A DNA stretch of 64,000 nt from Acidimicrobiales bacterium (lineage in GTDB: Bacteria; Actinomycetota; Acidimicrobiia; Acidimicrobiales; Aldehydirespiratoraceae), in assembly GCA_033344915.1 (NCBI GenBank), contig JAWPML010000001.1:3096369-3160368 (forward strand). Direction: 5' to 3'. Shown piece after piece: positions 24,231 to 36,783 of the stretch; position 1 is the stretch's first letter; each line of letters opens with the position of its first letter. The notes below the pieces were generated by a model. It was given only the letters and a program-made list of their open reading frames with translations. It did not search any database and had not been told where the DNA came from. The position numbers and the translations under genes were made by a program.

Positions 24231-24980
24231 TCAGTACGGCCAGTCGCGGGTGGTGTGGCCCAAGATCCGCGTCAGCGGATACAGCTTTGCCGTCAGCAGG
24301 ACCTTGATGATCACGTTGCGGACGAACCAGGGCAGCTGGACGATCTGGCGGAGCAGATTCGTGATCCGTTCGCCACCACCGAGGCGCTCGCGGCGGTACT
24401 CCGCCATCGACTGTGACCGGCCGACGTAGCGCCACTCGCCGGACAGGAACCGCGTGGACAGCAGGGCGAGGGTGACCCCGATCGAGCTGAACGAATCGTG
24501 GATGAGCAGCACCCCGCCGCCCGAGACCCGGTCGCCCCAGTCCACGATGTCGGCCCGCGCCGGCCCGAAGCGGTGGGCCCCGTCGATGTAGAGCAGGTCG
24601 ATCTCACCGTCCACGTCGGCGAGGGCTTCGTCACTCATCTTGCGGACATGGTCGACCCGGTCGCGCACGCCGGCCCGCGTGAGGTTCGCGTTGTAGACGC
24701 TGTGGTCGTCGTCGCCGCGTTCCTGATCCGCTTCGATCTCCTGGGGACCGCGATCGCTGCCGGCGTGGGGGTCGATCGACACGATCTCGACCCCGTCCTC
24801 TGCGGCCGAGGCGAGCACGATCAGGGACCGGGCCCGAAAGCTGCCGATCTCCACGATGCGGGTGCCGGCGCCGAGATCCGCGGCCCGCTCATAGAGACGC
24901 GCGGCCTGGTCGTCGGTCATCCACCCTTCGACGTCGGCGACCGAGGCCAACACGTCGGGAAAGGGAGGTCGGTCGGACAC
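24231..24980 (-). CDS. Class I SAM-dependent methyltransferase (Methyltransf_24-like)
   Basis: A 249-residue protein with GTRIVEIGSFRARSLIVLASAA as SAM motif I, SIDPH as the acidic second motif, and LLYIDGAHRFGPARADIVDWGD followed by GGGVLLIHDSF. The C-terminal 60 residues are basic and hydrophobic (WFVRNVIIKVLLTAKLYPLTR), perhaps membrane-bound. GTG 24980 follows TAGGCT by 8 bases. Substrate unknown; its layout matches the enzyme at 7452-8081. Confidence 0.8.
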   Translation of the reverse strand: MSDRPPFPDVLASVADVEGWMTDDQAARLYERAADLGAGTRIVEIGSFRARSLIVLASAAEDGVEIVSIDPHAGSDRGPQEIEADQERGDDDHSVYNANLTRAGVRDRVDHVRKMSDEALADVDGEIDLLYIDGAHRFGPARADIVDWGDRVSGGGVLLIHDSFSSIGVTLALLSTRFLSGEWRYVGRSQSMAEYRRERLGGGERITNLLRQIVQLPWFVRNVIIKVLLTAKLYPLTRILGHTTRDWPY

Positions 24981-25002
24981 GAGGCAGCAGCCTAGCGACG
25001 GG

Positions 25003-25302
25003 TCAGTCGAGCAGTTCTCCGGCGCGCCGGAAGATCCGCGACCGGGGCACGGCGTCGACACAGCCGGCGGCGAGCGCGCCGTCGAGCGCGTCGGTGTCGA
25101 CATGGGCGCCGTAGGCGACGACGGGCGGACCGAGCGCGACCAGGGCGCCGAGATCGGCGCCGAGGGCGAGGTCGACGACGATGAGGTCCGCGGCGCCGAG
25201 CGCGACGTCGCCCTCGTCGCGCACCACCGTGACCTCCGGCGCGGCGGAGCGGAAGCGCCCGCCGTCCATGAGGTCGCGGGTGAGCACGACGAGCCCGCTC
25301 AC
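25003..25302 (-). CDS. Small receiver-like alpha/beta protein, function unknown
   Basis: A 99-residue protein starting at GTG 25302, which overlaps the stop of the upstream gene (GTGA). Alternating hydrophobic strands (SGLVVLTRDL, LIVVDLAL, PPVVAYGAHV) and AAGCVDAVPRSR near the end look like a shrunken response-regulator fold. The phosphate-accepting Asp arrangement cannot be confirmed. It is always read with the 157-residue partner. Confidence 0.55.
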   Translation of the reverse strand: MSGLVVLTRDLMDGGRFRSAAPEVTVVRDEGDVALGAADLIVVDLALGADLGALVALGPPVVAYGAHVDTDALDGALAAGCVDAVPRSRIFRRAGELLD

Positions 25303-25772
25303 GTGGCGGCCTCGCGCCGGCGCCGGAGGTGCACATGGGCCCGCGCCGCGCCCCACAGCAGGCCCGGCTCGTGCAACGACTCGTCGATGTCGGCGAACGC
25401 GGCCGGGCCGAAGTCGTAGACGTCGTCGCGGAAGTTCTCCTGCGCGAACGCGTCGCGGATCACGGGGGGCACGCCGACCGCGCGCAGGTGTTCGGTCAGT
25501 GGTCGGGTCGATGCCCGGATGGCGGCGAGCGGGCTCCCGGCCCCGGCGTCCGGGTCGGCCAGCAGGATGCGCTCCAGCTCGGGGTCGAGCAACGCCAGCA
25601 CATCGGACACGGCAGCGTCGACCCCATCGGCGGCGACGCCGGCCGCGGCGCAGAGGGCGACCGCACGAGCACGCAACCAGCGCGGCGCCGCGGCCCGCAC
25701 GCGGGCGAGCAGGTCGGTGGAGATCTCGACGAGGCGCGCCTCGTCGTCAGCCAGCGTCGGCTCCGTGGTCAC
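25299..25772 (-). CDS. Unknown 157-residue protein
   Basis: An Ala-rich, mainly helical, soluble protein starting at GTG 25772 (TTEPTLADDEARLVEIST), with a more conserved-looking C-terminal part (FGPAAFADIDESLHEPGLLWG) and a basic tail. No family recognised. It is divergent from aconitase X; the two promoters overlap. It is coupled to the receiver-like gene by a 4-base overlap. Confidence 0.6.
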   Translation of the reverse strand: MTTEPTLADDEARLVEISTDLLARVRAAAPRWLRARAVALCAAAGVAADGVDAAVSDVLALLDPELERILLADPDAGAGSPLAAIRASTRPLTEHLRAVGVPPVIRDAFAQENFRDDVYDFGPAAFADIDESLHEPGLLWGAARAHVHLRRRREAAT

Positions 25773-25780
25773 GGTGGCGA

Positions 25781-25790
25781 ATACTACGGT
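25781..25790. promoter_or_regulatory. Overlapping divergent -10 boxes
   Basis: On the plus strand TACGGT (25785-25790) precedes ATG 25798 by 7 bases. On the minus strand TAGTAT (25786-25781) precedes GTG 25772 by 8 bases. The boxes share two bases, so only one polymerase could use the site at a time. Confidence 0.55.
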
Positions 25791-25797
25791 GACGCCG

Positions 25798-27072
25798 ATG
25801 CGACTCACCCTGACGGACGCCGATCAGGCGATGCTCGCCGGTGAGCGCGGCGACGCCACGGCAATGGCCATGCGGGTGGTGACCCGCGTCGCGGACACGA
25901 TGGAGGCGGCCGAACTGCTCTCGATCGAGGGTGCCCACATCGACAGTTGTCTGTACCTCGGCCAGGCCGGTCTCGACTTCGCGCGGGCACTGGCGGCCGG
26001 GGGCGCGCAGGTGTGTGTGCCCACCACCCTCAACGTGTCGTCGCTCGACCTCCTCCATCCGGACCTCTACCGGGGCGACGCCGACGCGGCCGACGACAGC
26101 CGGGCACTGATGACCCTCTACGAGGACATGGGCTGCCGGCCGACGTGGACGTGCGCGCCCTACCAGCTCGAGGACCGCCCGGCGTTCGGCCAGCACGTCG
26201 CCTGGGCCGAGTCGAACGCCATCGTGTTCGCCAACTCCGTGCTCGGCGCCCGCACCCATCGCTACGGCGACTTCATCGACATCTGCTCGGCGATCACGGG
26301 GCGCGCCCCGGCCGCCGGCCTGCACCTGGACGCCAACCGACGGGGCGAGATCGTGTTCCGGCTCGTCGGCGTCCGCGACGAACTGCTGCACCACGACGCG
26401 CTCGCGCCGGTGCTCGGCTCCCTCGTCGGGCACCGGGCCGGTGCGCGCGTCCCGGTGATCGTCGGTCTGCCGCCGGAGGTGCCCGAGCACCGGCTGAAGG
26501 CGCTCGGCGCGGCGGCCGCGTCGACCGGCGCCGTCGGGCTCTTCCACGCCGTCGGCATCACGCCGGAGGCACCCACCCTCGAGGCCGCGCTCGGCGGACG
26601 TCCGCCGACGGCGACCGTCGACATCACGCCCGCCGACCTGCGCGCCGCGCGCGACGCGCTGAGCACCACGGTGGACACGTCCGGCCCGCTCGGCGCGGTC
26701 TCGCTCGGCACACCGCACTACTCCGTGACCGAGTTCGGTCGCCTGCGCGATGCCCTCGCCGGGCGGGTCGTGTCACCCGACGTCGAGTGCTTCGTCAACA
26801 CCGGCCGCGATGTCCTCCACGAGATCTCGCTGCGGGGCTGGCAGGCCGAGCTGGAGCAGGCCGGCGTGCAGATCGTCACCGACACGTGCACCTACATCAC
26901 GCCGATCATGGCGGACGTCCGCACCTACGCCATGACCGACTCGGCGAAGTGGGCGCACTACGCGCCCGGGAACCTGGGCATCGATGTGGTGTTCGGCAGC
27001 GTCGACGACTGCGCCGACTCCGCCGTCACCGGCCGGCTCGTGTTCCGCGACGAGATGTGGGCCGACGCGTGA
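25798..27072 (+). CDS. Aconitase X, large (catalytic) subunit
   Basis: A 424-residue AcnX catalytic domain: LTLTDADQAMLAGERG at the N-terminus, IEGAHIDSCLYLG, VPTTLNVSSLDLLH, and near the end CFVNTGRDVLHE and TDTCTYITPIM, with cysteines suited to an iron-sulfur or metal centre. Bacterial AcnX enzymes split into two subunits have been shown to dehydrate cis-3-hydroxy-L-proline; others act in mevalonate metabolism. The small subunit follows with a 4-base overlap, and a pyrroline-carboxylate-reductase-type protein is encoded next, supporting the hydroxyproline role (inferred). Confidence 0.85.
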   Translation: MRLTLTDADQAMLAGERGDATAMAMRVVTRVADTMEAAELLSIEGAHIDSCLYLGQAGLDFARALAAGGAQVCVPTTLNVSSLDLLHPDLYRGDADAADDSRALMTLYEDMGCRPTWTCAPYQLEDRPAFGQHVAWAESNAIVFANSVLGARTHRYGDFIDICSAITGRAPAAGLHLDANRRGEIVFRLVGVRDELLHHDALAPVLGSLVGHRAGARVPVIVGLPPEVPEHRLKALGAAAASTGAVGLFHAVGITPEAPTLEAALGGRPPTATVDITPADLRAARDALSTTVDTSGPLGAVSLGTPHYSVTEFGRLRDALAGRVVSPDVECFVNTGRDVLHEISLRGWQAELEQAGVQIVTDTCTYITPIMADVRTYAMTDSAKWAHYAPGNLGIDVVFGSVDDCADSAVTGRLVFRDEMWADA

Positions 27073-27494
27073 CCGTTCGCCCCCACCGGGTCGTGGTCGC
27101 CGGCGAGGCATCCGGCGCCGTGCTCGCCCTCGACGAGCCGGTGAGCTTCTGGGGCGGACTCTGCGCCGAGGACGGTCGCGTGATCGACGAGCACCACCCG
27201 CAAATCGGCGCCTGCGTGACGGACACGATCCTGGTGATGCGCAGCGGACGGGGATCGAGCTCGGCGAGCACCGTGCTCGCCGAGATGGCGCGGCTCGGCA
27301 CCGCCCCCGCCGCGATCGTCATGATCGACGCCGACGAGATCCTCGCCACCGGATCGATCGTCGCCGACGAGCTCTACGGCCGCCCCGTCCCGATCGTCCT
27401 CGTCACCGAGGCCGACTACCCCACCATCGCCGCCGCAACCACCGCGACCCTGTCCCCCGACGGCACCCTCACCCCCGCTTCACCTGGGGTCTGA
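27069..27494 (+). CDS. Aconitase X, small (swivel) subunit
   Basis: A 141-residue AcnX swivel domain: AVLALDEPVSFWGGL, DEHHPQIGACVTDTILVMRSGRGSSSASTV, then IVMIDADEILATGSIVADEL and PIVLVTEADY. The SGRGSSS loop is the substrate-binding loop of the family. GTG start overlaps the large-subunit stop. The last residues (TPASPGV) and the stop lie inside a GGGGTCTGACCCC repeat, so the original C-terminus was replaced or trimmed there. Confidence 0.85.
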   Translation: MTVRPHRVVVAGEASGAVLALDEPVSFWGGLCAEDGRVIDEHHPQIGACVTDTILVMRSGRGSSSASTVLAEMARLGTAPAAIVMIDADEILATGSIVADELYGRPVPIVLVTEADYPTIAAATTATLSPDGTLTPASPGV

Positions 27495-27507
27495 CCCCCG
27501 CTTCACC
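27472..27507. repeat. GGGGTCTGACCCC element flanked by direct repeats
   Basis: CCCCCGCTTCACC occurs at 27472-27484 and 27495-27507 around the core GGGGTCTGACCCC (27486-27498). The TGA in the core is the stop of the aconitase-X small subunit. The CTTCACC flank is the same as in the palindrome at 36791-36843. Confidence 0.8.
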
Positions 27508-27513
27508 TCGCCG

Positions 27514-28458
27514 CTACCGCTCGCCGAACGCGAGCTTGGCGGCGGCGACGTCCTCCAGGGCGAGGCCGACGGACTTGAACACGGTGATCTCGTCGTCCGA
27601 CCGTCGTCCGGGATGGGTACCGCGCACGAGGTCGGCGAGATCGGCCTGGATCGCATCCGTGGTGATCACCCCGGATGCAAGGGGCTGCGCCAGGTCGCCG
27701 GCCAGGATGGCGTCGTCGCGGGTGTCCACGAACAGCGAGCCCCGCACGACGACGGCATCGTCCGACTCGCGCATCTCGGCGTTGAACGCCCCGACGAGGT
27801 CGACATGGGCGCCCGGCTGCAGCAGGTCACCACGGATCAGCGGCTCGCGGGATCCCGTGACGGCGCTGATGACATCGGCGGTCGCGACCGCGGCATCGAG
27901 CTCGCCGGCCACGACGGCCGGGTAGCCCGCGGCGACGAGCTCCTCGACCACCGCGGCCGCGGCGTCGGCCCGGCGGCCCCATATCTCGATCCGTTCGTAG
28001 TCCCGGACGGCGGCGTGGGCCTGGGCGGCCATCGGGGCGAGCGCGCCCGATCCCACGACGAGCAGGCGGCGCGCATCGGGCCGAGCCAGCCGTTTCGCCG
28101 CTGCCGCGCTGGCGGCGGCCGTGCGCCGCGTCGTGAGCTCGTTGCCCGCGCACGCGCCGAGCAGCGATCCGGTCGCCGCGTCGAACAGCAGCACGCCCGC
28201 CTGCACCGTCGGCAGGCCCTGCGCGCCGTTGTCGGGATAGACGGTGACCGCCTTCAAGGCGATGACGTCACCGATGATCCACGCCGGCTTCAGCAGGAAC
28301 GCCCCATCGGCGGCGCCCGGCACCGGGACCGTGTGGACCGTCCGCGTCGGCGACGCACCGTCCGGGTGGGTGACGGCGTCCTCGACCGCGCCGATGAGCG
28401 CGTCCCACGGCAGCGCCGCGGCGACGGCGCCATCGTCGAGGAACACCGGCGCGGTCAT
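27514..28458 (-). CDS. Ornithine cyclodeaminase/mu-crystallin-family reductase
   Basis: A 314-residue NAD(P)-binding protein. GACAGNELTTRRTAAASAAA and the Rossmann stretch RRLLVVGSGALAPMAAQAHA, with ITVFKSVGLALEDVAAAKLA at the end, are family hallmarks. Members include ornithine cyclodeaminase and delta-1-pyrroline-2-carboxylate reductase. Next to aconitase X the reductase is more likely: dehydrated cis-3-hydroxyproline gives pyrroline-2-carboxylate, which it would reduce to proline. Its ATG overlaps the stop of the selenoprotein candidate (ATGA), so the two are co-translated. Confidence 0.85.
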   Translation of the reverse strand: MTAPVFLDDGAVAAALPWDALIGAVEDAVTHPDGASPTRTVHTVPVPGAADGAFLLKPAWIIGDVIALKAVTVYPDNGAQGLPTVQAGVLLFDAATGSLLGACAGNELTTRRTAAASAAAAKRLARPDARRLLVVGSGALAPMAAQAHAAVRDYERIEIWGRRADAAAAVVEELVAAGYPAVVAGELDAAVATADVISAVTGSREPLIRGDLLQPGAHVDLVGAFNAEMRESDDAVVVRGSLFVDTRDDAILAGDLAQPLASGVITTDAIQADLADLVRGTHPGRRSDDEITVFKSVGLALEDVAAAKLAFGER

Positions 28459-29018
28459 TCGGGGATCCAGGCTTCGGTCGGCACGCCGAGACCGTCCGCG
28501 ATGCGGTTCGCGTACGCGTAGTAGGCCGTGACCTCCACGATGTCGAGGATGTCGCGATCCGAGAAGCCGACGTCACGCAACGCAACCACATCCGCCTCGA
28601 CCATCGCCCCCGGCGTCACGGTGAGCTTCACCGCGTACGCGAGCATCGCCCGGCGGGCCTCCGAGAGGTCCGCGGTTCGCCAGTCCGCCTCGACCGCGGC
28701 GAGCAGCTCGTCGTCCTTGAGCAGCCGGCGCAGACCGCGCCGATGGTGGACGATTCAATAGTGACATTCGTTCTCCAGGCTGACGACGAGCGCGATCAAC
28801 TCGCGCTCGACCTTGCGGAGCGACCCCGTCCCCGCCATCGCCGATGTGTAGAGCCCGCTGTGCGCCGCAAGACCACGCGGGTTGAGGGAATGAATCGCCA
28901 TGATGTGATCGACGCGGTCGTGGTCGCGATCGACGACCTGTTCGCGGAGCGGGGCGAGGTCGCCGTCCCACCGGTCGTCCGGCACGGTCTCGATCCACGG
29001 GCCATCGTTCGCGGGCAT
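28455..29018 (-). CDS. AhpD-like peroxidase-related selenoprotein candidate (in-frame TGA = Sec88)
   Basis: Read through one TGA (28755-28757), this is a complete 187-residue member of the AhpD/carboxymuconolactone-decarboxylase family, of the 'uncharacterised peroxidase-related' type. Before the TGA: AGTGSLRKVERELIALVVSL, then ENECHY; after it IVHHRRGLRRLLKDDELL and then AMLAYAVKLTVTPGAMVEAD and GFSDRDILDIVEVTAYYAYA. The TGA falls on the second Cys of the redox motif C-x2-C-x3-H, giving C85-H-Y-U88-x3-H92. AhpD-like selenoproteins have been predicted from marine metagenomes. ATG 29018 is chosen; ATG 29036 is in frame. If TGA were a stop, the product would lack the active site. A nonsense-mutated pseudogene is the main alternative. 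Confidence 0.82.
28726..28757 (-). promoter_or_regulatory. SECIS-like hairpin directly after the in-frame UGA
   Basis: On the minus strand, 12 bases after UGA (28757-28755), CGGCGC-GGUCU-GCGCCG forms a perfect 6-bp stem with a GGUCU loop (28742-28726). Counting U of UGA as 1, the loop puts G at 23 and U at 24, the bases SelB needs in the E. coli fdhF element; codons 7-8 after UGA are GGU CUG in both. The bulged U17 of fdhF is G here. Confidence 0.75.
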
Positions 29019-29070
29019 CGCCGCATCACAGCACATCCTCGGGGGGAAGCGGGAGGTTGACGCGCGGGAC

Positions 29071-29086
29071 ATAACATATTAGTTAT
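29071..29086. promoter_or_regulatory. ATAAC-N6-GTTAT operator between the ArsR and selenoprotein genes
   Basis: ATAACATATTAGTTAT is an inverted repeat and the only AT-rich stretch nearby. It ends one base before the ArsR ATG (29087) and overlaps likely -10 boxes in both directions (CATATT 6 bases before ATG on plus, TATGTT on minus). The regulator probably binds it and controls both genes. Confidence 0.65.
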
Positions 29087-29416
29087 ATGGCTATGCCCGC
29101 GCTGGCCGACACCGACCGCGACCTCGAAGCGACGCTGAAGGCGCTCGCGAGCGCCCGCCGCCTCCAGATCCTCGAATGGTTGAAGGATCCGGTCGCCCAC
29201 TTTCCGCCCCAGGAACACGGCGATCCGATCGTCGACGGCGCCTGCAACCAGTTCATCGCCGACAAACTCGGCGTCAGCCAGCCCGCGGCGAGTCGCCACC
29301 TGAAGGTGCTCACCGACGCCGGACTCATCATCGCGACCCCCCGCCAGGGCTGGGTCTACTACCGCCGCGACGACGACGCGCTCGACACGGTCAAGCGAGA
29401 CCTGCACGATCTCTGA
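29087..29416 (+). CDS. ArsR-family winged-helix regulator
   Basis: A 109-residue DNA-binding protein. The winged helix spans about 12-100: LKALASARRLQILEWLKD, the recognition helix in NQFIADKLGVSQPAASRHLK, and the wing in GLIIATPRQGWVYYRR. An insertion (about 38-58) holds PQEHGDPIVDGAC with one Cys and two His-type ligands nearby, so metal or redox sensing is possible but not shown. It overlaps a short palindromic operator and sits at the head of the SDR-HyuAB operon, divergent from the selenoprotein candidate. Confidence 0.88.
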   Translation: MAMPALADTDRDLEATLKALASARRLQILEWLKDPVAHFPPQEHGDPIVDGACNQFIADKLGVSQPAASRHLKVLTDAGLIIATPRQGWVYYRRDDDALDTVKRDLHDL

Positions 29417-29426
29417 GAGGACGCTC

Positions 29427-30239
29427 ATGACAACCGGATACGAATCACTCGACGGCAAGGCGGTGCTGGTCACCGGCGCGGGCAAGGGCATCGGCCGCGC
29501 CCTCGCCCAGCGCTTCGCCGGCGTCGGTTGTCGGGTCGGCGTGAACGATGTCGACGCAGCCGACGCCGACGCGACCGCCGCGGCGATCAACGACGGTGGC
29601 GGCACCGCCCTCGCCCTCGCCGCCGATGTGTCCGACGGCGCCGCGGTCGAGACGATGTTCGACGCGTTCATCGCCGAGTTCGGCACCATCGACGTCCTCG
29701 TCAACAACGCCGGCCTCGTCAGCCCGATGCTGCACTTCTTCGAGGCCGACGAAGCCTGGTGGCGCCGCATCGTCGACGTGAACCTCACCGGTCACTTCCT
29801 CACGTCGCACCGCGCTGCTCGGGTGATGGCGAAGAACGGCGGTGGCGTCATCCTCAACATGTCCTCCGGCGGCGCCACCCGCGCCCATCGCAGCTTCACC
29901 GCCTACGACGCGACCAAGGGCGGCATCGAGGCGCTCACCCGGGCGATGGCGCTCGACCTCGGCCCGTACAACATCCGGGTCAACGCGCTCATGCCGGGAT
30001 CGATCGACACCAGCGGTCTCTCGGTCGAGGACCGCGTCCACCGGGGCGAGAACGTGCCGCTCGGGCGGATCGGCGAGCCGTCCGACATGACCGGCGCCGC
30101 CCTGTTCCTCGCCTCGGACGACGCCTCCTACATCACCGGTGACGTCATCAAGATCGACGGCGGCATGCTCGCCCAGCAGCGGTCGGCGACCGTCGACATC
30201 AAGCCGCCGTCCGAGTTTCCCGCGATCGAGGACCTGTAG
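29427..30239 (+). CDS. Short-chain dehydrogenase/reductase
   Basis: A 270-residue classical SDR. The cofactor motif is TGAGKGIG (about 16-23), NNAG is present, and the catalytic Ser and Tyr-x3-Lys lie in NMSSGGAT and AYDATKGG. It oxidises or reduces a small alcohol or ketone with NAD(P). A GAGAGGACGC ribosome site precedes ATG 29427. First enzyme gene in the run SDR-HyuA-HyuB-FAD oxidoreductase. Confidence 0.92.
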   Translation: MTTGYESLDGKAVLVTGAGKGIGRALAQRFAGVGCRVGVNDVDAADADATAAAINDGGGTALALAADVSDGAAVETMFDAFIAEFGTIDVLVNNAGLVSPMLHFFEADEAWWRRIVDVNLTGHFLTSHRAARVMAKNGGGVILNMSSGGATRAHRSFTAYDATKGGIEALTRAMALDLGPYNIRVNALMPGSIDTSGLSVEDRVHRGENVPLGRIGEPSDMTGAALFLASDDASYITGDVIKIDGGMLAQQRSATVDIKPPSEFPAIEDL

Positions 30240-30242
30240 ACC

Positions 30243-32318
30243 ATGGGCGCACGCATCGGCGCCGACGTCGGAGGGACATTCACCGACATCGTGATCGAAC
30301 GCGCCGACGGGAGCCTCCACTCCACCAAGGTGCTGACGACGCACGACGCGCCGGAGCGAGGCATCCTCGACGGCATCGGCCAGGTCGCGGCGGAGGTCGG
30401 CGTCGACCTCGCCGAGGTCGATCAGATCATCCACGGCACGACGCTCGCGACCAATGCGCTCATCGAGCGGCGGGGCGCCCGCACCGCGCTCGTCACGACC
30501 GCCGGCTTCCGCGACGTGATCGAGACCCGCACCGAGAGCCGGTTCGAGCAGTACGACCTCGACATCGTGCTTCCCGCGCCGCTCATCGAACGCAAGGATC
30601 GGCTCACGGTCACCGAACGGCTCAACGCCCGCGGCGAGATCCTGCTGCCCTTCGACGAGAACGAGGCCCGTGCGGTGATCGCGACCATCGGCGCCGGCGG
30701 CTACGAGTCCGTCGCCGTCGGGTTCATCCACGCCTACCGCAACGCCGCCCACGAGGAGCGCTTCCGGGATCTCCTCCTCACCGAGCTGGCGGACATCGCC
30801 GTGTCGATCTCCAGCGAGGTGTCTCCCCAGATGCGGGAGTACGAGCGCTTCAACACCGTCTGCGCGAACGCCTACGTCCAGCCCCTCATGGCCTCGTATC
30901 TCGTCCGGTTGCGCGACGAGCTGGCAGCCCGCGGCGCGACGGCGCCGCTCTACCTGATCCACTCCGGCGGCGGCCTGATGTCGGTCGAGTCGGCCGCGGC
31001 CTTCCCGGTGCGCCTCGTGGAGTCCGGTCCGGCGGGCGGCGCGATCTTCGCGGCCGACCTCGCCCATCGCTGCGGCCGCGACCGCGTGCTCTCCTACGAC
31101 ATGGGCGGCACCACGGCGAAGATCAGCCTGATCGAGGACTACACGCCGCAGACGGCGAAGACCTTCGAGGTCGACCGGTCGGCCCGGTTCAAGAAGGGAT
31201 CGGGCATGCCCATCTCGATCCCCGTGATCGAGATGATCGAGATCGGCGCGGGCGGGGGATCCATCGCCAGCGTCGACGCCCTCGGGCAGATCCGCATCGG
31301 CCCCCACAGCGCCGGCAGCGAGCCGGGGCCGGCGGCGTACGACCTCGGTGGCACGGACGCGACCGTGACGGATGCGAACGTCGAACTCGGCCGGCTCCAT
31401 CCGGACACCTTCGGGGCGACCGACATCACCCTCTCGCCGACCAACGCGGCGCGGGCGATCGACGACGGCGTCGGGCAGGCCCTCGGGCTCGACACCCACA
31501 CCGCGGCGATCGGCATCGCGGAGGTCGTGGACGAGAACATGACCAACGCCGCGCGCGTCCACGCGGTCGAGAACGGCCGCGATCTCGTCGGCTACACCAT
31601 GATCGCGTTCGGGGGCGGTGCGCCGCTCCACGCCGCCCGCCTCATGGACAAGCTCGGCCTCGACGAGTTGATCGTCCCGTCCGGGGCCGGGGTGGGGTCC
31701 GCCATCGGCTTCCTGCGGGCGCCCTTCAGCTACGAGGCGGTCCGCAGCTTCTACACGACCACCTCGGACTTCGACGCGGCCGGCGCCAACGAGATGCTCG
31801 CCGAGCTCGCCGCCGAGGCGACCGACTTCGTGCGGGCCGGCACCGACGCCCCGGTCACGATCACCCGCCAGGTCGCCATGCGCTACAAGGGCCAGGGCTG
31901 GGAGATCCCGGTGGCGATCGGCGACGGCGAGTTCGACGAGTTCGCGGCCGAGGCGCTCGCCACCGCCTTCACGAAGGCGTACATCGAGTTCTTCGGCCGG
32001 GCGATCGACGACCTGGCCATCGAGGCGGTGAGCTGGGCCGTGCGCGTGTCGTCCGTGGAGGACGCTCCCGACCCGGTCGCCCTGTCGAGCGATGCCGACG
32101 CCGCGGTCGCGGTGTCCGCCACCCGACCGATTTACGACCCGGCCGAACGGGTCGACAGCGAGGCTGCGGTCGTGCACCGCGACGCGGTGCCCGTCGGCGC
32201 CCGCGTCGAGGGCCCCGCGGTCATCGTCGAGCAGCAGACGACCACGGTGCTCGCCGGCCATCATGTCGCCGTGGTGCAACCGGACGGTTCGCTGCTCGTC
32301 ACGAGGAGAGCTTCGTGA
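30243..32318 (+). CDS. hyuA: Hydantoinase/oxoprolinase family protein, subunit A
   Basis: A 691-residue ATP-dependent amidohydrolase subunit of the HyuA/ATP-dependent oxoprolinase type. The N-terminal ASKHA fold begins RIGADVGGTFTDIVIERADG, with HGTTLATNALIER, SYDMGGTTAKIS and IGAGGGSIAS as phosphate-binding loops. With HyuB it opens a cyclic amide such as hydantoin, N-methylhydantoin, 5-oxoproline or a carboxylated ketone. It starts 3 bases after the SDR stop, and HyuB overlaps by 4 bases. The acceptor is not known. Confidence 0.9.
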   Translation: MGARIGADVGGTFTDIVIERADGSLHSTKVLTTHDAPERGILDGIGQVAAEVGVDLAEVDQIIHGTTLATNALIERRGARTALVTTAGFRDVIETRTESRFEQYDLDIVLPAPLIERKDRLTVTERLNARGEILLPFDENEARAVIATIGAGGYESVAVGFIHAYRNAAHEERFRDLLLTELADIAVSISSEVSPQMREYERFNTVCANAYVQPLMASYLVRLRDELAARGATAPLYLIHSGGGLMSVESAAAFPVRLVESGPAGGAIFAADLAHRCGRDRVLSYDMGGTTAKISLIEDYTPQTAKTFEVDRSARFKKGSGMPISIPVIEMIEIGAGGGSIASVDALGQIRIGPHSAGSEPGPAAYDLGGTDATVTDANVELGRLHPDTFGATDITLSPTNAARAIDDGVGQALGLDTHTAAIGIAEVVDENMTNAARVHAVENGRDLVGYTMIAFGGGAPLHAARLMDKLGLDELIVPSGAGVGSAIGFLRAPFSYEAVRSFYTTTSDFDAAGANEMLAELAAEATDFVRAGTDAPVTITRQVAMRYKGQGWEIPVAIGDGEFDEFAAEALATAFTKAYIEFFGRAIDDLAIEAVSWAVRVSSVEDAPDPVALSSDADAAVAVSATRPIYDPAERVDSEAAVVHRDAVPVGARVEGPAVIVEQQTTTVLAGHHVAVVQPDGSLLVTRRAS

Positions 32319-33928
32319 GCGATCAACGGGAGCTCCACAACCAGGTGATGTGGAACCGCCTCGTCTCGGTCGTCGAGGAGCAGGCGCTCACCCTGGTGCG
32401 CACCGCCTTCTCCACCTCCGTGCGCGAGGCGGGCGATCTCTCGGCCGGCGTCTTCGATCGCCGCGGTCGGATGGTCGCCCAAGCCGTCACGGGCACCCCC
32501 GGCCACGTGAACACGATGGCCGCCGCGGTCCCCCACTTCATCAACGACATCGGCCCCGAGCGCATCCACCCCGGCGACGTCTACGTCACGAACGACCCGT
32601 GGAAGGGCACGGGCCACCTCCACGACATCACGGTCGCCACCCCGGTCTTCGTCGGCGACACGCTGATCGGCTTCTTCGCGTCGACGGCGCACGTCGTCGA
32701 CATCGGCGGCCGGGGCTACGGGCCCGACGCACGCGAGGTCTACGAGGAAGGGCTGCGGATCCCGATCCTCAAGTGGGTCGACCGGGGCGAACTGAATCAG
32801 GACCTCGTGACGATCGTCCGCCAGAACGTGCGCGAAGCGGACCAGGTCGTCGGCGACATCCACGGCCTCGCCGCATCGAACGAGACCGGACGCCGCCGGC
32901 TGCTCGCCATGCTCGAGGAGTTCGGTCTCAGCGATCTCGACGACCTGGCGACCTTCGTGTTCGCGCGAACCGAACGGGCGACGCTGGAGGCGTTGCGCAA
33001 CGTCCCGAACGGGACCTATCGCAATGAGATGCAGGTGGACGGCTACGACGCGACCCTCACCCTCGCCGTCACGATCACGGTCACCGACGGCGGGATGCAT
33101 GCCGACTTCACCGGCACCTCCCCCACCAGCGCGTTCGGCGTGAACGTTCCCCTCACCTACGCCCAGGCGTACTTCACCTACGGGATGCTCGTCGCGCTGG
33201 CTCCCGAGCTGCCCAACAACTTCGCGTCGCTCGCACCGTTCACCGTCTCGGCACCGCCTGGCGTGATCCTCAACGCCGAACACCCGGACCCGGTGGCCGT
33301 GCGTCACGTGATCGGGCATTTCGTCACCGACCTCTGTCTCGGTGCGATCGCCGAGGCGCGACCCGACCGCATCCCGGCCGAAGGTGCCGGCGCTCTCTGG
33401 AACTTCCAGGCCTCGGCCCGCAGCGCCTCGGCCGATGACCCCAAGCCGCCCGTCGAGATCCTCATGTTCAACAGCGGCGGCACGGGCGCCCGGCCCGGTC
33501 TCGACGGCCTGACGGCCACGGCGTTCCCGTCCGGCGTCCGCACGATGTCGGCCGAGGCCACCGAGCAGGTCGGCCCGATCGTGATCTGGCGCAAGGAGAT
33601 CCGACCGGACTCCGGCGGCGCCGGCCGCCAACGCGGCGGCCTCGGTCAGGTCATCGAGGTCGGGCCGGCCGACGGCTACCTGTTCGAGTTCTCCGCGATG
33701 TTCGATCGGGTGGAGAACCCGGCCCGCGGCCGAGCCGGCGGCGAGGACGGCGCACCCGGCGCCGTCTACCTGGACGACGGCACGCCGTTCGCGACGAAGG
33801 GCAAGCAGACGGTGCCGGCCGATCGGCGGCTCGTCATGGAGCTGCCCGGTGGCGGCGGCTTCGGCGACCCGGCGGAGCGCGACCCGGCGGCCGACGAGAA
33901 CGACCGGAAGCAGGGATACCGCACATGA
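32315..33928 (+). CDS. hyuB: Hydantoinase/oxoprolinase family protein, subunit B
   Basis: A 537-residue HyuB-type protein of normal length. Typical stretches are GDVYVTNDPWKGTGHLHDIT, GFFASTAHVVDIGGRG, IPAEGAGALWNFQ and PDSGGAGRQRGGLGQV. It supplies the hydrolase half of the two-subunit, ATP-dependent cyclic-amide-opening enzyme. GTG start overlaps the HyuA stop, and the next ATG overlaps its own stop, so subunits are made in equal amounts. Confidence 0.9.
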   Translation: MSDQRELHNQVMWNRLVSVVEEQALTLVRTAFSTSVREAGDLSAGVFDRRGRMVAQAVTGTPGHVNTMAAAVPHFINDIGPERIHPGDVYVTNDPWKGTGHLHDITVATPVFVGDTLIGFFASTAHVVDIGGRGYGPDAREVYEEGLRIPILKWVDRGELNQDLVTIVRQNVREADQVVGDIHGLAASNETGRRRLLAMLEEFGLSDLDDLATFVFARTERATLEALRNVPNGTYRNEMQVDGYDATLTLAVTITVTDGGMHADFTGTSPTSAFGVNVPLTYAQAYFTYGMLVALAPELPNNFASLAPFTVSAPPGVILNAEHPDPVAVRHVIGHFVTDLCLGAIAEARPDRIPAEGAGALWNFQASARSASADDPKPPVEILMFNSGGTGARPGLDGLTATAFPSGVRTMSAEATEQVGPIVIWRKEIRPDSGGAGRQRGGLGQVIEVGPADGYLFEFSAMFDRVENPARGRAGGEDGAPGAVYLDDGTPFATKGKQTVPADRRLVMELPGGGGFGDPAERDPAADENDRKQGYRT

Positions 33929-35127
33929 ACCACCGTCCGCCGGGCCGCGACGGGTACGACGTCGTCATCATCGGGGGCGCGGTGATGGGCTCGTCCGCGG
34001 CGTGGTTCCTCTCCGCGAATCCCGACTTCGACGGCTCGGTCCTGGTCGTCGAACGCGACCCGTCCTACGAGTTCACGTCCACGGCGCACACGAACAGCTG
34101 CATGCGCCAGCAGTTCTCCAACGAGGTCAACATCCGGATCTCGCAGTTCGCCGCCGACTTCGTGAGGAACTTCCGCAGCCATCTCGGCGACGACCCCGAG
34201 GTGCCGAACATCCCGGTCGATCACTTCGGCTACCTGTACCTGGCCGACACCGAGTCGTTCGCGGCCACACTGCGGCACAACCAGGAGCTCCAGGCGAGCT
34301 GGGGCGCGGGGACGAAGATCCTGTCGCCCGCCGAGATCGCCGCGGCCTACCCCTTCTACGACCTCGACGGGATCGTGTGCGGGAGTCACAACCTCGTCGA
34401 CGAGGGCTACTTCGATTCGGGGACGATGTTCGACTGGTGGCGGCGCAAGGCGCGCCAGAACGGGGTCGAGTACGTCGCCAACGAGGTGGTCGGGATCTCG
34501 CACGACGCCCGCCGAGTGCAGTCGGTCGAGTTGGCGTCCGGCGAGTCCGTCGCCTGCGGCACCGTGGTGAACGCGGCCGGCCCGCGAGCGATCGAGGTCG
34601 CCCGGATGATCGACGCCGAGCTGCCGGTCGAGCCCCGCAAGCGGTTCTCGTTCGTCTTCGACGCCGCCGAGCCGCTCGACCGGCGCCTCCCGCTCACGAT
34701 CGACCCGTCGGGGGTCCACGTGCGCAGCGACGGCGACGCCTACATGGCCGGCTGCCCGCCCGATGTCGACCCGCCGGTCGACTACGACGACTTTGCGATG
34801 GACCACGACATCTGGGAGGACAAGGTGTGGCCGGCGATCGCCAACCGCATCCCGGCATTCGAGCGAGTGAAGGTCACCAGCCGGTGGGCCGGCCACTACG
34901 CGTACAACACGCTCGACCAGAACGTGATCATCGGCCCGCACCACGAGATCGAGAACTTCGTGTTCATGAACGGCTTCTCGGGTCATGGGATGCAGCAATC
35001 GCCGGCGGTCGGCCGGGGCGTGAGCGAGTGGATCACCTACGGCGAGTTCCGGTCGCTCGACCTGTCGCCGCTCGGGTACCACCGCATCGCGGCGAACGAG
35101 CCGTTCGTCGAAACCGCCGTCATCTAG
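33925..35127 (+). CDS. DadA/sarcosine-oxidase-like FAD oxidoreductase
   Basis: A 400-residue flavoprotein with the dinucleotide motif VVIIGGAVMGSSAAWFL at the N-terminus, VVERDPSYEFTSTAHTN for FAD contacts, and a C-terminal GYHRIAANEP. GFSGHGMQQSPAVGRG is the conserved flavin-binding region of the D-amino-acid and sarcosine dehydrogenase family. It should oxidise a secondary or primary amine of an amino acid. After ring opening by HyuAB, an N-methylated or D-amino acid would be a logical substrate (inference). Confidence 0.88.
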   Translation: MNHRPPGRDGYDVVIIGGAVMGSSAAWFLSANPDFDGSVLVVERDPSYEFTSTAHTNSCMRQQFSNEVNIRISQFAADFVRNFRSHLGDDPEVPNIPVDHFGYLYLADTESFAATLRHNQELQASWGAGTKILSPAEIAAAYPFYDLDGIVCGSHNLVDEGYFDSGTMFDWWRRKARQNGVEYVANEVVGISHDARRVQSVELASGESVACGTVVNAAGPRAIEVARMIDAELPVEPRKRFSFVFDAAEPLDRRLPLTIDPSGVHVRSDGDAYMAGCPPDVDPPVDYDDFAMDHDIWEDKVWPAIANRIPAFERVKVTSRWAGHYAYNTLDQNVIIGPHHEIENFVFMNGFSGHGMQQSPAVGRGVSEWITYGEFRSLDLSPLGYHRIAANEPFVETAVI

Positions 35128-35130
35128 GGT
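35125..35130 (+). promoter_or_regulatory. TAGGGT -10 box, leaderless, for the TPP enzyme
   Basis: TAGGGT begins at the stop codon of the FAD oxidoreductase; six bases (CGGCCG) then lead to ATG 35137. It could give the TPP enzyme its own transcript inside the operon. Confidence 0.5.
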
Positions 35131-35136
35131 CGGCCG

Positions 35137-36783
35137 ATGGCGCGCACCGGGGGGCAGATCGTGGTCGACAGTCTCGTCGCCCACGGCGTGACGACGACGT
35201 TCGGCGTGCCGGGCGAGAGCTATCTCGCGGTGCTCGACGCGCTGCACGACACCGACATCCAGGTGATCACGTGCCGCCAGGAAGGCGGCGCCGCGTACAT
35301 GGCCGAGGCCTGGGCGAAGCTCACCGGACGGGTCGGCGTGTGTCTCGTGACGCGCGGCCCCGGTGCGACCAACGCGTCGATCGGCATCCACGCGGCGATG
35401 CAGGCATCCACGCCCATGGTGATGCTCGTCGGTCAGGTGTCCACCCACGAACAGGGCCGGGAGGCGTTCCAGGAGATCGACTACCGGGCCATGTTCGGTG
35501 GCGTCGCGAAGTGGGCGACGGAGATGGGTTCGGCGGACGAGGCATCGGCCGTGATGGCGGAGGCGTTCCACGCCGCGGCCGCCGGTCGCCCCGGCCCCGT
35601 CGTGGTCGCGCTTCCCGAGGACGTGCTCGGCGCCGTGAGCGGAGCCGATCCGGTGGCGCCGCTCCCCGTCGACCCGCAGGCGCCGGCCGAGGATGAGGTC
35701 GACGCCGTACTCGACGCGCTGGCCGGCGCCGAGCGGCCAGTGCTGCTCGCGGGCGGCGGCGGCTGGACCGACGACGCCCGGGCGGACCTCCGCGCCGTGG
35801 CCGAGGCGCATGAGGTCCCGGTGGTCGTGACGTTCCGCCGCCACGACCTGATGGACAACACGAGCGCGAGCTACGTCGGCGAGGCGGGCGTCGCCATGCC
35901 GCCACCGGTGCGGGCGACGCTCGAGGAGGCGGACTGCGTCATCGCCCTCGGCGCCCGGTTCGGCGAGATGACCACGGCCGCCTGGTCGATCTGGCCCGTC
36001 GGTGACCCGGGCGTCACCCTCGTGCACGTCCACCCGGACCCGGGCCAGCACGGCAAGATCCACACGCCGACCGTGGCGATCGCCGCTCGGCCGGCCGCGA
36101 TGCTCGCCGCCCTGCGGGCCCGCACCGCGGCCCCGCCCGTCCACGGCGCGTGGCGCGAGGCCCGCCGCGACGCCTACGTCGCGTCGCTCGACGCGCCGGC
36201 GCAACCCGGCCCGCTCGACATGGGCGAGGTGATGGCCTGGCTGCGGGCCAACCTGCCGTCCGACGCGGTGCTGACCAACGGCGCCGGCAACTTCTCGGTC
36301 TGGCCCAACAAGTTCTTCGTCTACGGGCCCGAGGCACGGCTCCTCGCGCCCCAGGCGGGCTCGATGGGCTACGGCCTCCCGGCGGCCGTCGCCGCGAAGG
36401 TGGCCGACCCGGCCCGCACGGTCGTGTGCTTCGCCGGGGACGGCGACGTCCAGATGAACATCCAGGAGCTCGGCACCGGGCTCCAGCACGATGCCCAACC
36501 GATCGTCCTCGTGGTCGACAACGGCATGTACGGCACGATTCGCATGCACCAGGAGCGTCACTTCCCCGAGCGGGTCGTCGGCACCGACATCGTCAACCCG
36601 GACTTCGTCGCCCTGGGCCGGGCCTACGGCATGCACGCCGAACGGGTCGACGCCACCGCGGACTTCCCCGCCGCGTTCGGACGCGCCCAGGCGTCAACGA
36701 CCGGCGCGCTGTTGCACCTTCGAGTCGACCCCGATCAGCTGACCCCGACGCAGTCGATCGCCCAGGCCCGCGGTGAGCGATGA
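35137..36783 (+). CDS. Thiamine-pyrophosphate enzyme, acetolactate-synthase-like
   Basis: A 548-residue three-domain TPP enzyme. TTFGVPGESYLAVLDAL and CRQEGGAAYMAEAWA carry the activating Glu; GDGDVQMNIQELGT with a later DNGMYG forms the Mg-TPP motif. It resembles acetolactate synthase and related decarboxylases or lyases, but there is no small regulatory subunit, and its place after hyuAB and an amine oxidoreductase suggests a catabolic 2-oxo-acid reaction. It converges on livF with a palindrome in between. Confidence 0.88.
   Translation: MARTGGQIVVDSLVAHGVTTTFGVPGESYLAVLDALHDTDIQVITCRQEGGAAYMAEAWAKLTGRVGVCLVTRGPGATNASIGIHAAMQASTPMVMLVGQVSTHEQGREAFQEIDYRAMFGGVAKWATEMGSADEASAVMAEAFHAAAAGRPGPVVVALPEDVLGAVSGADPVAPLPVDPQAPAEDEVDAVLDALAGAERPVLLAGGGGWTDDARADLRAVAEAHEVPVVVTFRRHDLMDNTSASYVGEAGVAMPPPVRATLEEADCVIALGARFGEMTTAAWSIWPVGDPGVTLVHVHPDPGQHGKIHTPTVAIAARPAAMLAALRARTAAPPVHGAWREARRDAYVASLDAPAQPGPLDMGEVMAWLRANLPSDAVLTNGAGNFSVWPNKFFVYGPEARLLAPQAGSMGYGLPAAVAAKVADPARTVVCFAGDGDVQMNIQELGTGLQHDAQPIVLVVDNGMYGTIRMHQERHFPERVVGTDIVNPDFVALGRAYGMHAERVDATADFPAAFGRAQASTTGALLHLRVDPDQLTPTQSIAQARGER

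Follow-up and report, generated by a model that had tools for sequence, protein, structure and literature searches.

A conserved in-frame UGA in an AhpD-like gene of Acidimicrobiales, very probably read as selenocysteine

The gene at positions 28455–29018 (minus strand) very probably encodes a selenoprotein of AhpD fold, in which the UGA at codon 88 would be read as selenocysteine (Sec), as judged from sequence comparison. It lies in a window of 64,000 nucleotides, the whole stretch of DNA analysed, from an Acidimicrobiales genome assembled as one contig of 4.48 Mb (completeness 96.25). What lifts this assignment above chance is the conservation of the UGA together with that of the hairpin behind it, and not the hairpin alone.

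Reading frame and conservation of the UGA

The ATG-initiated frame of 564 bases runs from 29018 to 28455 on the minus strand and comprises 188 codons, among which codons 88 and 188 are the only stops, both TGA; read through, it yields a protein of 187 residues with Sec88. The internal TGA (28755–28757, minus) stands at the second Cys of a C-x2-C-x3-H motif, which here becomes C85-H-Y-U88-I-V-H-H92, and is followed by 99 further codons of open frame. The read-through protein matches TIGR01926 (peroxidase-related enzyme) over residues 36–181, on both flanks of the TGA, with 145.6 bits (cut-off 81.8), and matches PF02627 with 49.5 bits (cut-off 23). Relatives of TIGR01926 without stops elsewhere in the same genome are weaker, none scoring above the cut-off. 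An in-frame ATG lies six codons upstream (29036), and a Met in frame ahead of the start is also seen in several orthologues; translation may begin at 29036 instead of 29018. These results agree with the initial annotation, made from the letters of the window, which had placed the TGA exactly at the second Cys and had the frame running on for 99 codons with family similarity. It had also expected gene callers to split the gene, and the mechanical list of open reading frames does break it in pieces, one of which, 105 amino acids long, terminates at the TGA. Its wording 'probable new selenoprotein' holds for the selenoprotein, whereas 'new' is true of the gene only, the AhpD-like CxxU family being already known.

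A scan of 397 genomes of the order at a match threshold of E ≤ 1e-25 returned 73 rows in 69 genomes, and a TGA lies inside 69 of the 73 rows. Its position at the second Cys was verified in 33 fetched rows, the window's own included, and the other 36 have one TGA inside the match. The four rows without TGA are two tandem paralogues with an SxxW motif (genomes G106 and G138), in which Ser replaces the first Cys and the Sec position is Trp (TGG); a fragment at a contig end that stops before codon 88 (G308); and a Cys form, CHYC, of 39% identity in G018, the only matching genome without selA. No Cys form was found among the rows of at least 64% identity from these 397 genomes, and this absence among close orthologues suggests that selenium is needed in them rather than optional. 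All 80 named loci, of 65–82% identity, likewise carry the TGA at the site; they are the best 80 of at least 248 relatives, a set biased to near relatives and overlapping that of the order scan. Among these best 80, the labels are mostly Acidimicrobiales, Acidimicrobiia, Acidimicrobiaceae, Actinomycetota and Microthrix, with a few 'bacterium' and one Planctomycetaceae. The last of these (L090, PBOU01000167.1, labelled Planctomycetaceae bacterium RS383) has 39 bases after the TGA identical to those of L092, labelled Acidimicrobiaceae, so that its contig is likely to be mislabelled or misbinned. One orthologue, at G052:C83:25849-26382, carries a TAG besides its TGA, which may reflect a broken gene or an assembly error.

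The wider scan of the phylum (396 genomes, E ≤ 1e-20) gave 38 rows in 33 genomes, and the motif was read in 29 fetched loci. A TGA occurs in 16 of the 38 rows, 12 of which were fetched and are mostly C-x2-U, with Ala for the first Cys in L162; of the 22 rows without TGA, 17 were fetched and all 17 have CLYC, encoded with TGC or TGT. The structural homologues 3c1l, 2pfx and 6k40 also have their second Cys at the aligned Sec position. The alignment of homologues that had been proposed as a check thus places Cys exactly at Sec88, in the three structures, in 17 of 17 CLYC loci and in the CHYC form of G018. The recurrence of this TGA in many further genomes rules out a sequencing error for TGC or TGT, which had been named beforehand as a possible refutation.

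A tandem SxxW paralogue (TGG) beside the selenoprotein gene is seen at L067:2803-3903 (plus strand), with a matching gene in L068; the L067 frame has a long acidic N-terminal stretch as well. From its sequence the paralogue looks like an inactive partner, because the first Cys has also been lost to Ser. Scanned viral contigs gave two pattern matches and no relative, and scanned phage records gave no match. A match was obtained in 43 plasmid records, and among the five matches listed only the neighbouring gene of the ornithine cyclodeaminase/mu-crystallin family (OCD) was matched.

Predicted SECIS hairpin and decoding machinery

The element assigned as a bacterial SECIS, on the grounds of fold, codon conservation and covariation, occupies 28726–28742 (minus). 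It begins 12 bases past the UGA and consists of six base pairs (28742–28737 with 28731–28726; CGGCGC/GCGCCG) closed by the loop GGUCU (28736–28732); folding reproduced the perfect stem, loop and distance initially described. Codons 7–8 after the UGA are GGU CUG, the same as in the fetched E. coli fdhF sequence. The four bacterial SECIS rules of PMC13188914 call for a loop of 3–9 nt with G in its first two positions, a stem of 4–16 bp, 16–37 nt from UGA to loop and an energy of −7.5 or lower. Scored by these rules, as had been suggested, the hairpin conforms to all four, with a loop of 5 nt that starts with GG, a stem of 6 bp, a UGA–loop spacing of 18 nt and −12.3 kcal/mol.

Hairpin stability was rejected as proof of a SECIS: the element folds with no greater stability than shuffled sequences do (z of −0.27, −0.97 and −1.25 for three lengths), and a loose stem-loop with at least six Watson–Crick pairs follows 93 of the 1,395 TGA triplets in the window. 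Only one of these triplets, the TGA of Sec88, has the exact element behind it in the fdhF position. At gathering scores, Rfam gave no match in the 64-kb window, and no tRNA was found there either.

Codon usage across the element is far more constrained. Codons 94–96 are CGC GGT CTG (R94, G95 and L96) in 33 of 33 sequences, and among 50 sites of degenerate residues at which at least 30 of the 33 sequences share the same residue, these three show zero variation and have the three lowest codon entropies, R93 and R97 being within the lowest six. All 81 distinct elements of the close subfamily contain GGT CTG; they were drawn from the order, named-locus and phylum sets and picked by the CHYU-x2-HH motif, not by the hairpin. 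The fixation of GGT CTG is a feature of this close subfamily: at this place eight of eight more distant TGA loci (L158–L163, L165 and L166) lack it. Stem pairing holds in 96.1% of the cells of the alignment, and the covariation score of 0.094 exceeds the shuffled mean of 0.061, with none of 500 shuffles as high. Three pairs have changes on both sides, the same number as when the 3′ arm is slid by +2; the slid register offers seven further pair types against six in the real one, but has 39.1% of cells paired and a score of 0.060 against 0.094. The stem falls within conserved Arg codons, and covariation is modest, supporting evidence rather than proof.

The genome was searched, as the initial annotation had advised, for selA, selB, selC and selD, and all four are present. 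The profile search found selB with 275.7 bits (cut-off 242.25; 2–338 of 581 model positions matched) and, adjoining it, selA with 384.8 bits (cut-off 267.9). The gene for tRNA-Sec (selC) scores 64 bits in Rfam (gathering 47) and is also called by ARAGORN with the anticodon tca, and selD scores 359.8 bits (cut-off 125) with one in-frame UGA. SelD itself is thus encoded by a selenoprotein gene (G000:C1:1225971-1226897, minus; L186), with the UGA in G-U-G-C-K and one predicted hairpin loop, GGUCG. Two further UGA-containing genes, AhpD-related and above the cut-off of their family NF041238 (CFYU), lie at G000:C1:36115-37098 (L187) and 2664785-2665702 (L188), with predicted hairpin loops GGUCU and CGUGC. 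The five-base loops of the four UGA genes of the genome all have G and U at loop positions 2–3, as would suit recognition by one SelB. Across the order, selA is present in 237 of 397 genomes, 169 of them without this selenoprotein gene; 68 of the 69 genomes matching the selenoprotein also have selA, the exception being G018 with its CHYC form (the Fisher test of this co-occurrence ignores shared ancestry).

Two readings would dispense with Sec. That the gene is broken, its TGA being a genuine stop, an error of sequencing or the mutation of a pseudogene, has as its sole point in favour the splitting of the frame by the mechanical list, with its piece ending at the TGA, and is extremely improbable given the TGA in 69 of 73 rows, its recurrence at the same site throughout the 80 named loci (best 80 of at least 248; 65–82% identity) and residues beyond it, His92 among them, that are invariant in 33 of 33 sequences. 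Decoding of the UGA as tryptophan or another ordinary amino acid could draw on the tandem paralogue of two genomes with TGG at the aligned position, but that paralogue has also exchanged its first Cys for Ser and looks inactive. Against such decoding stand as well the hairpin with its frozen codons, the Sec machinery in the genome, the co-occurrence with selA, the Cys in homologues and the termination of the frame itself by TGA near the ends of orthologues, which together leave this reading very unlikely.

Active site, gene neighbourhood and probable reaction

Across all 33 sequences, no variation occurs at Glu73, Cys85, Tyr87, position 88 or His92, which conform to the catalytic pattern E-x11-C-x-[HY]-C-x3-H, with Sec for the second Cys. 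Their spacing is the same as that of Glu36, Cys48, Tyr50, Cys51 and His55, the catalytic residues of PA0269 according to PMC3141380. In a structure model predicted with Cys at position 88 (pLDDT 87.6), Glu73 lies in helix 69–83, Cys85 just before helix 86–100, and Tyr87, position 88 and His92 inside the latter, a predicted arrangement that matches the two-helix motif of the AhpD family. In a fold search with the model, 37 PDB chains reached E ≤ 0.001; 6k40 and 3c1l ranked highest, and PA0269 (2ijc and 2o4d) was among the 37. The closest solved structures are the peroxidase-related 6k40, 3c1l, 2prr and 2pfx, with 6k40 and 3c1l at 33–36% identity and E of about 1e-8. The debrominase Bmp8 (6ohi and 6ohj) ranks beside PA0269, with a TM-score of about 0.71, 21–22% identity and E of 2e-5, and M. 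tuberculosis AhpD follows behind it at E of 0.04 or worse. Because Bmp8 matches the model better than does M. tuberculosis AhpD, homology leaves the chemistry unsettled, and a Bmp8-like chemistry would be possible.

The likeliest function of the enzyme, as far as sequence can indicate, is that of either a selenol/thiol peroxidase or a disulfide/selenenyl-sulfide reductase, and direct peroxidase activity is favoured with some reserve. In the proposed sequence of events, SelB with Sec-tRNA would bind the GGUCU hairpin 12 bases past the UGA, and Sec would be inserted at position 88, where it would take the place of the second Cys in the AhpD site E-x11-C-x-[HY]-C-x3-H. The selenolate of Sec88 would then most likely reduce a peroxide or similar electrophile, and Cys85 would convert the selenenic acid so formed into a selenenyl-sulfide. 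From this state the enzyme would presumably be regenerated by a donor, either a thiol of the cell or a lipoyl group.

The selenoprotein stop codon overlaps the ATG (ATGA) of a downstream gene on the same strand, a Δ1-pyrroline-2-carboxylate reductase of the OCD family (27514–28458, minus; NF004793, 354.4 bits, cut-off 322; PF02423). Convergent to this pair are the genes of both aconitase X (AcnX) subunits on the plus strand, the large subunit at 25798–27072 (PF04412, 435.6 bits; start inferred) and the small, or swivel, subunit at 27069–27494 (PF01989, 88.5 bits). The large subunit scores 410 bits against NF051439; the cut-off of 700, which it does not reach, applies to a model of 555 positions in which the small subunit is included. 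The two-chain AcnX function is here a putative one, assigned by homology only, the precedent concerning an enzyme of single-chain form. Divergent from the selenoprotein gene, an ArsR-type regulator (29087–29416, plus; NF033788, 58.3 bits, cut-off 55; no Pfam match at 1e-10) opens a run of plus-strand genes that continues with a short-chain dehydrogenase (SDR; 29427–30239; profile matches), the A-type (30243–32318; PF01968 and PF05378) and B-type (32315–33928; PF02538, 489.8 bits) subunits of a hydantoinase/oxoprolinase, an FAD-dependent, DAO-type oxidoreductase (33925–35127; PF01266, 175 bits) and a thiamine-pyrophosphate enzyme (35137–36783; NF006052, 717.1 bits, cut-off 539). This divergent run (29087–36783) is partly conserved beside the selenoprotein gene, with HyuA in 6 of the 80 named loci (best 80 of at least 248).

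In the same best 80 of at least 248 relatives, AcnX is found in the flanks of 26 loci, in 25 of them downstream and in opposite orientation, and OCD in the flanks of 16, of which 13 have it downstream on the same strand; AcnX is present in 20 of the 63 named loci that have at least 3.5 kb of downstream sequence. Across the order, AcnX occurs in 42 of 394 genomes, and the selenoprotein accompanies it in 35 of these 42 against 33 of the 352 others, a comparison that ignores shared ancestry, leaves out G018 and takes the selenoprotein list from the 397-genome draw, treated as the same set as the 394. The two genes lie within 6 kb of each other in 16 of the 34 genomes compared, many of whose contigs are short. 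Because the neighbour is absent from most loci, AcnX may stand outside the core task of the enzyme. An AhpD-related CFYU gene adjoins the selenoprotein gene on the opposite strand in L036, L040 and L045, where its UGA was read, and by tblastn a CFYU gene adjoins it, again on the opposite strand, in L093, L101, L103, L108, L109 and L139, none of which six has AcnX in its flank.

A gene pair with ahpC is the mark of the M. tuberculosis type of AhpD and not a rule across AhpD-like proteins in general; here no ahpC occurs among the ten neighbouring genes that were examined (24231–36783). This absence weighs against a selenium-dependent disulfide reductase or adaptor that feeds a peroxiredoxin or other partner instead of acting as a direct peroxidase, a role for which the co-occurrence with AcnX and the precedent of M. 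tuberculosis AhpD, described as an adaptor for AhpC in PMC3141380, would speak and which is considered rather doubtful. A selenoprotein whose reaction is a Bmp8-like reductive dehalogenation, or a conversion of pyrroline metabolites from the neighbouring pathway, rather than peroxide reduction is suggested by the fold match to Bmp8 ahead of M. tuberculosis AhpD, PMC7918430 describing Bmp8 as an enzyme that dehalogenates and that decarboxylates a bromopyrrole acid, and by the pyrroline-related context that the AcnX and reductase genes provide. The Bmp8 match nevertheless ranks below the peroxidase-related 6k40 and 3c1l in both identity and E-value, and AcnX neighbours just 26 of the 80 named loci (best 80 of at least 248), so that a reaction of this kind is judged unlikely. 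A peroxidase remains the preferred reading. A broader and speculative proposal, to which little credence is given at present, would have the gene mark a selenium-dependent step in an island of pyrroline/hydroxyproline catabolism of the Acidimicrobiales. A Sec-only AhpD-like subfamily would there cooperate with pyrroline-2-carboxylate reductase and with AcnX as the cis-3-hydroxyproline dehydratase, acting on some product of their pathway or shielding the enzymes of that pathway, and in one genus this subfamily would have acquired an inactive tandem partner of SxxW type.

Comparison with known systems

Published accounts of AhpD-like CxxU selenoproteins go back to 2005, and the window gene, by its sequence, is assigned to that known kind (COG2128/TIGR01926; AhpD-like 1 of marine surveys), with which it has in common the domain family, the CxxU motif and a UGA with a bacterial SECIS. 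The initial annotation had acknowledged that Cys homologues and AhpD-like selenoproteins were known, in accordance with three publications, which give 27 sequences from the Sargasso Sea (PMC1088965), 299 from the GOS survey (PMC2398784) and an entry in a 2026 table with the example MCB9421940.1 (PMC13188914). The likeness is set at the level of family and motif, and in their available parts these accounts (PMC1088965, PMC2398784 and PMC13188914) name neither Acidimicrobiia nor an AcnX neighbourhood. Among the open-licence papers listed, no report was found of an AhpD-like selenoprotein in this order or of the neighbourhood with AcnX and pyrroline-2-carboxylate reductase; none of them names aconitase X together with AhpD, and a single proteomics paper on C. 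difficile mentions pyrroline-2-carboxylate and AhpD, each of them once. What makes the gene noteworthy beyond the known kind is the strict conservation of the UGA in the order together with the link to genes of hydroxyproline breakdown. Mechanical gene calling here splits the gene of a conserved enzyme with a predicted selenocysteine, seen both in a genome assembled as one contig and in related genomes; selA is common in this order of Actinomycetota (237 of 397 genomes), and the recurrent AcnX neighbourhood offers a concrete lead to the substrate of AhpD-like selenoproteins.

The E. coli fdhF SECIS shares with the window hairpin GGU CUG at codons 7–8 and G-G-U at positions 22–24, counted from the U of the UGA. 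The description of the element as fdhF-like accordingly stands as to these codons and the identical placement of G23 and U24, but fails for the unpaired U in the upper stem of fdhF, which has no counterpart in the uninterrupted 6-bp stem of the window hairpin; E. coli SelB needs this unpaired U. AhpD_rel_CFYUT (NF041238; hypothetical protein 1 of the Sargasso Sea) is also an AhpD-type CxxU selenoprotein, with two UGA copies in the same genome, but it is longer (357 positions) and has a CFYU motif, and the window gene, scoring 37.1 bits against a cut-off of 175, is not a member. PA0269 and M. tuberculosis AhpD both have Cys at the second motif position, where the window gene has the predicted Sec.
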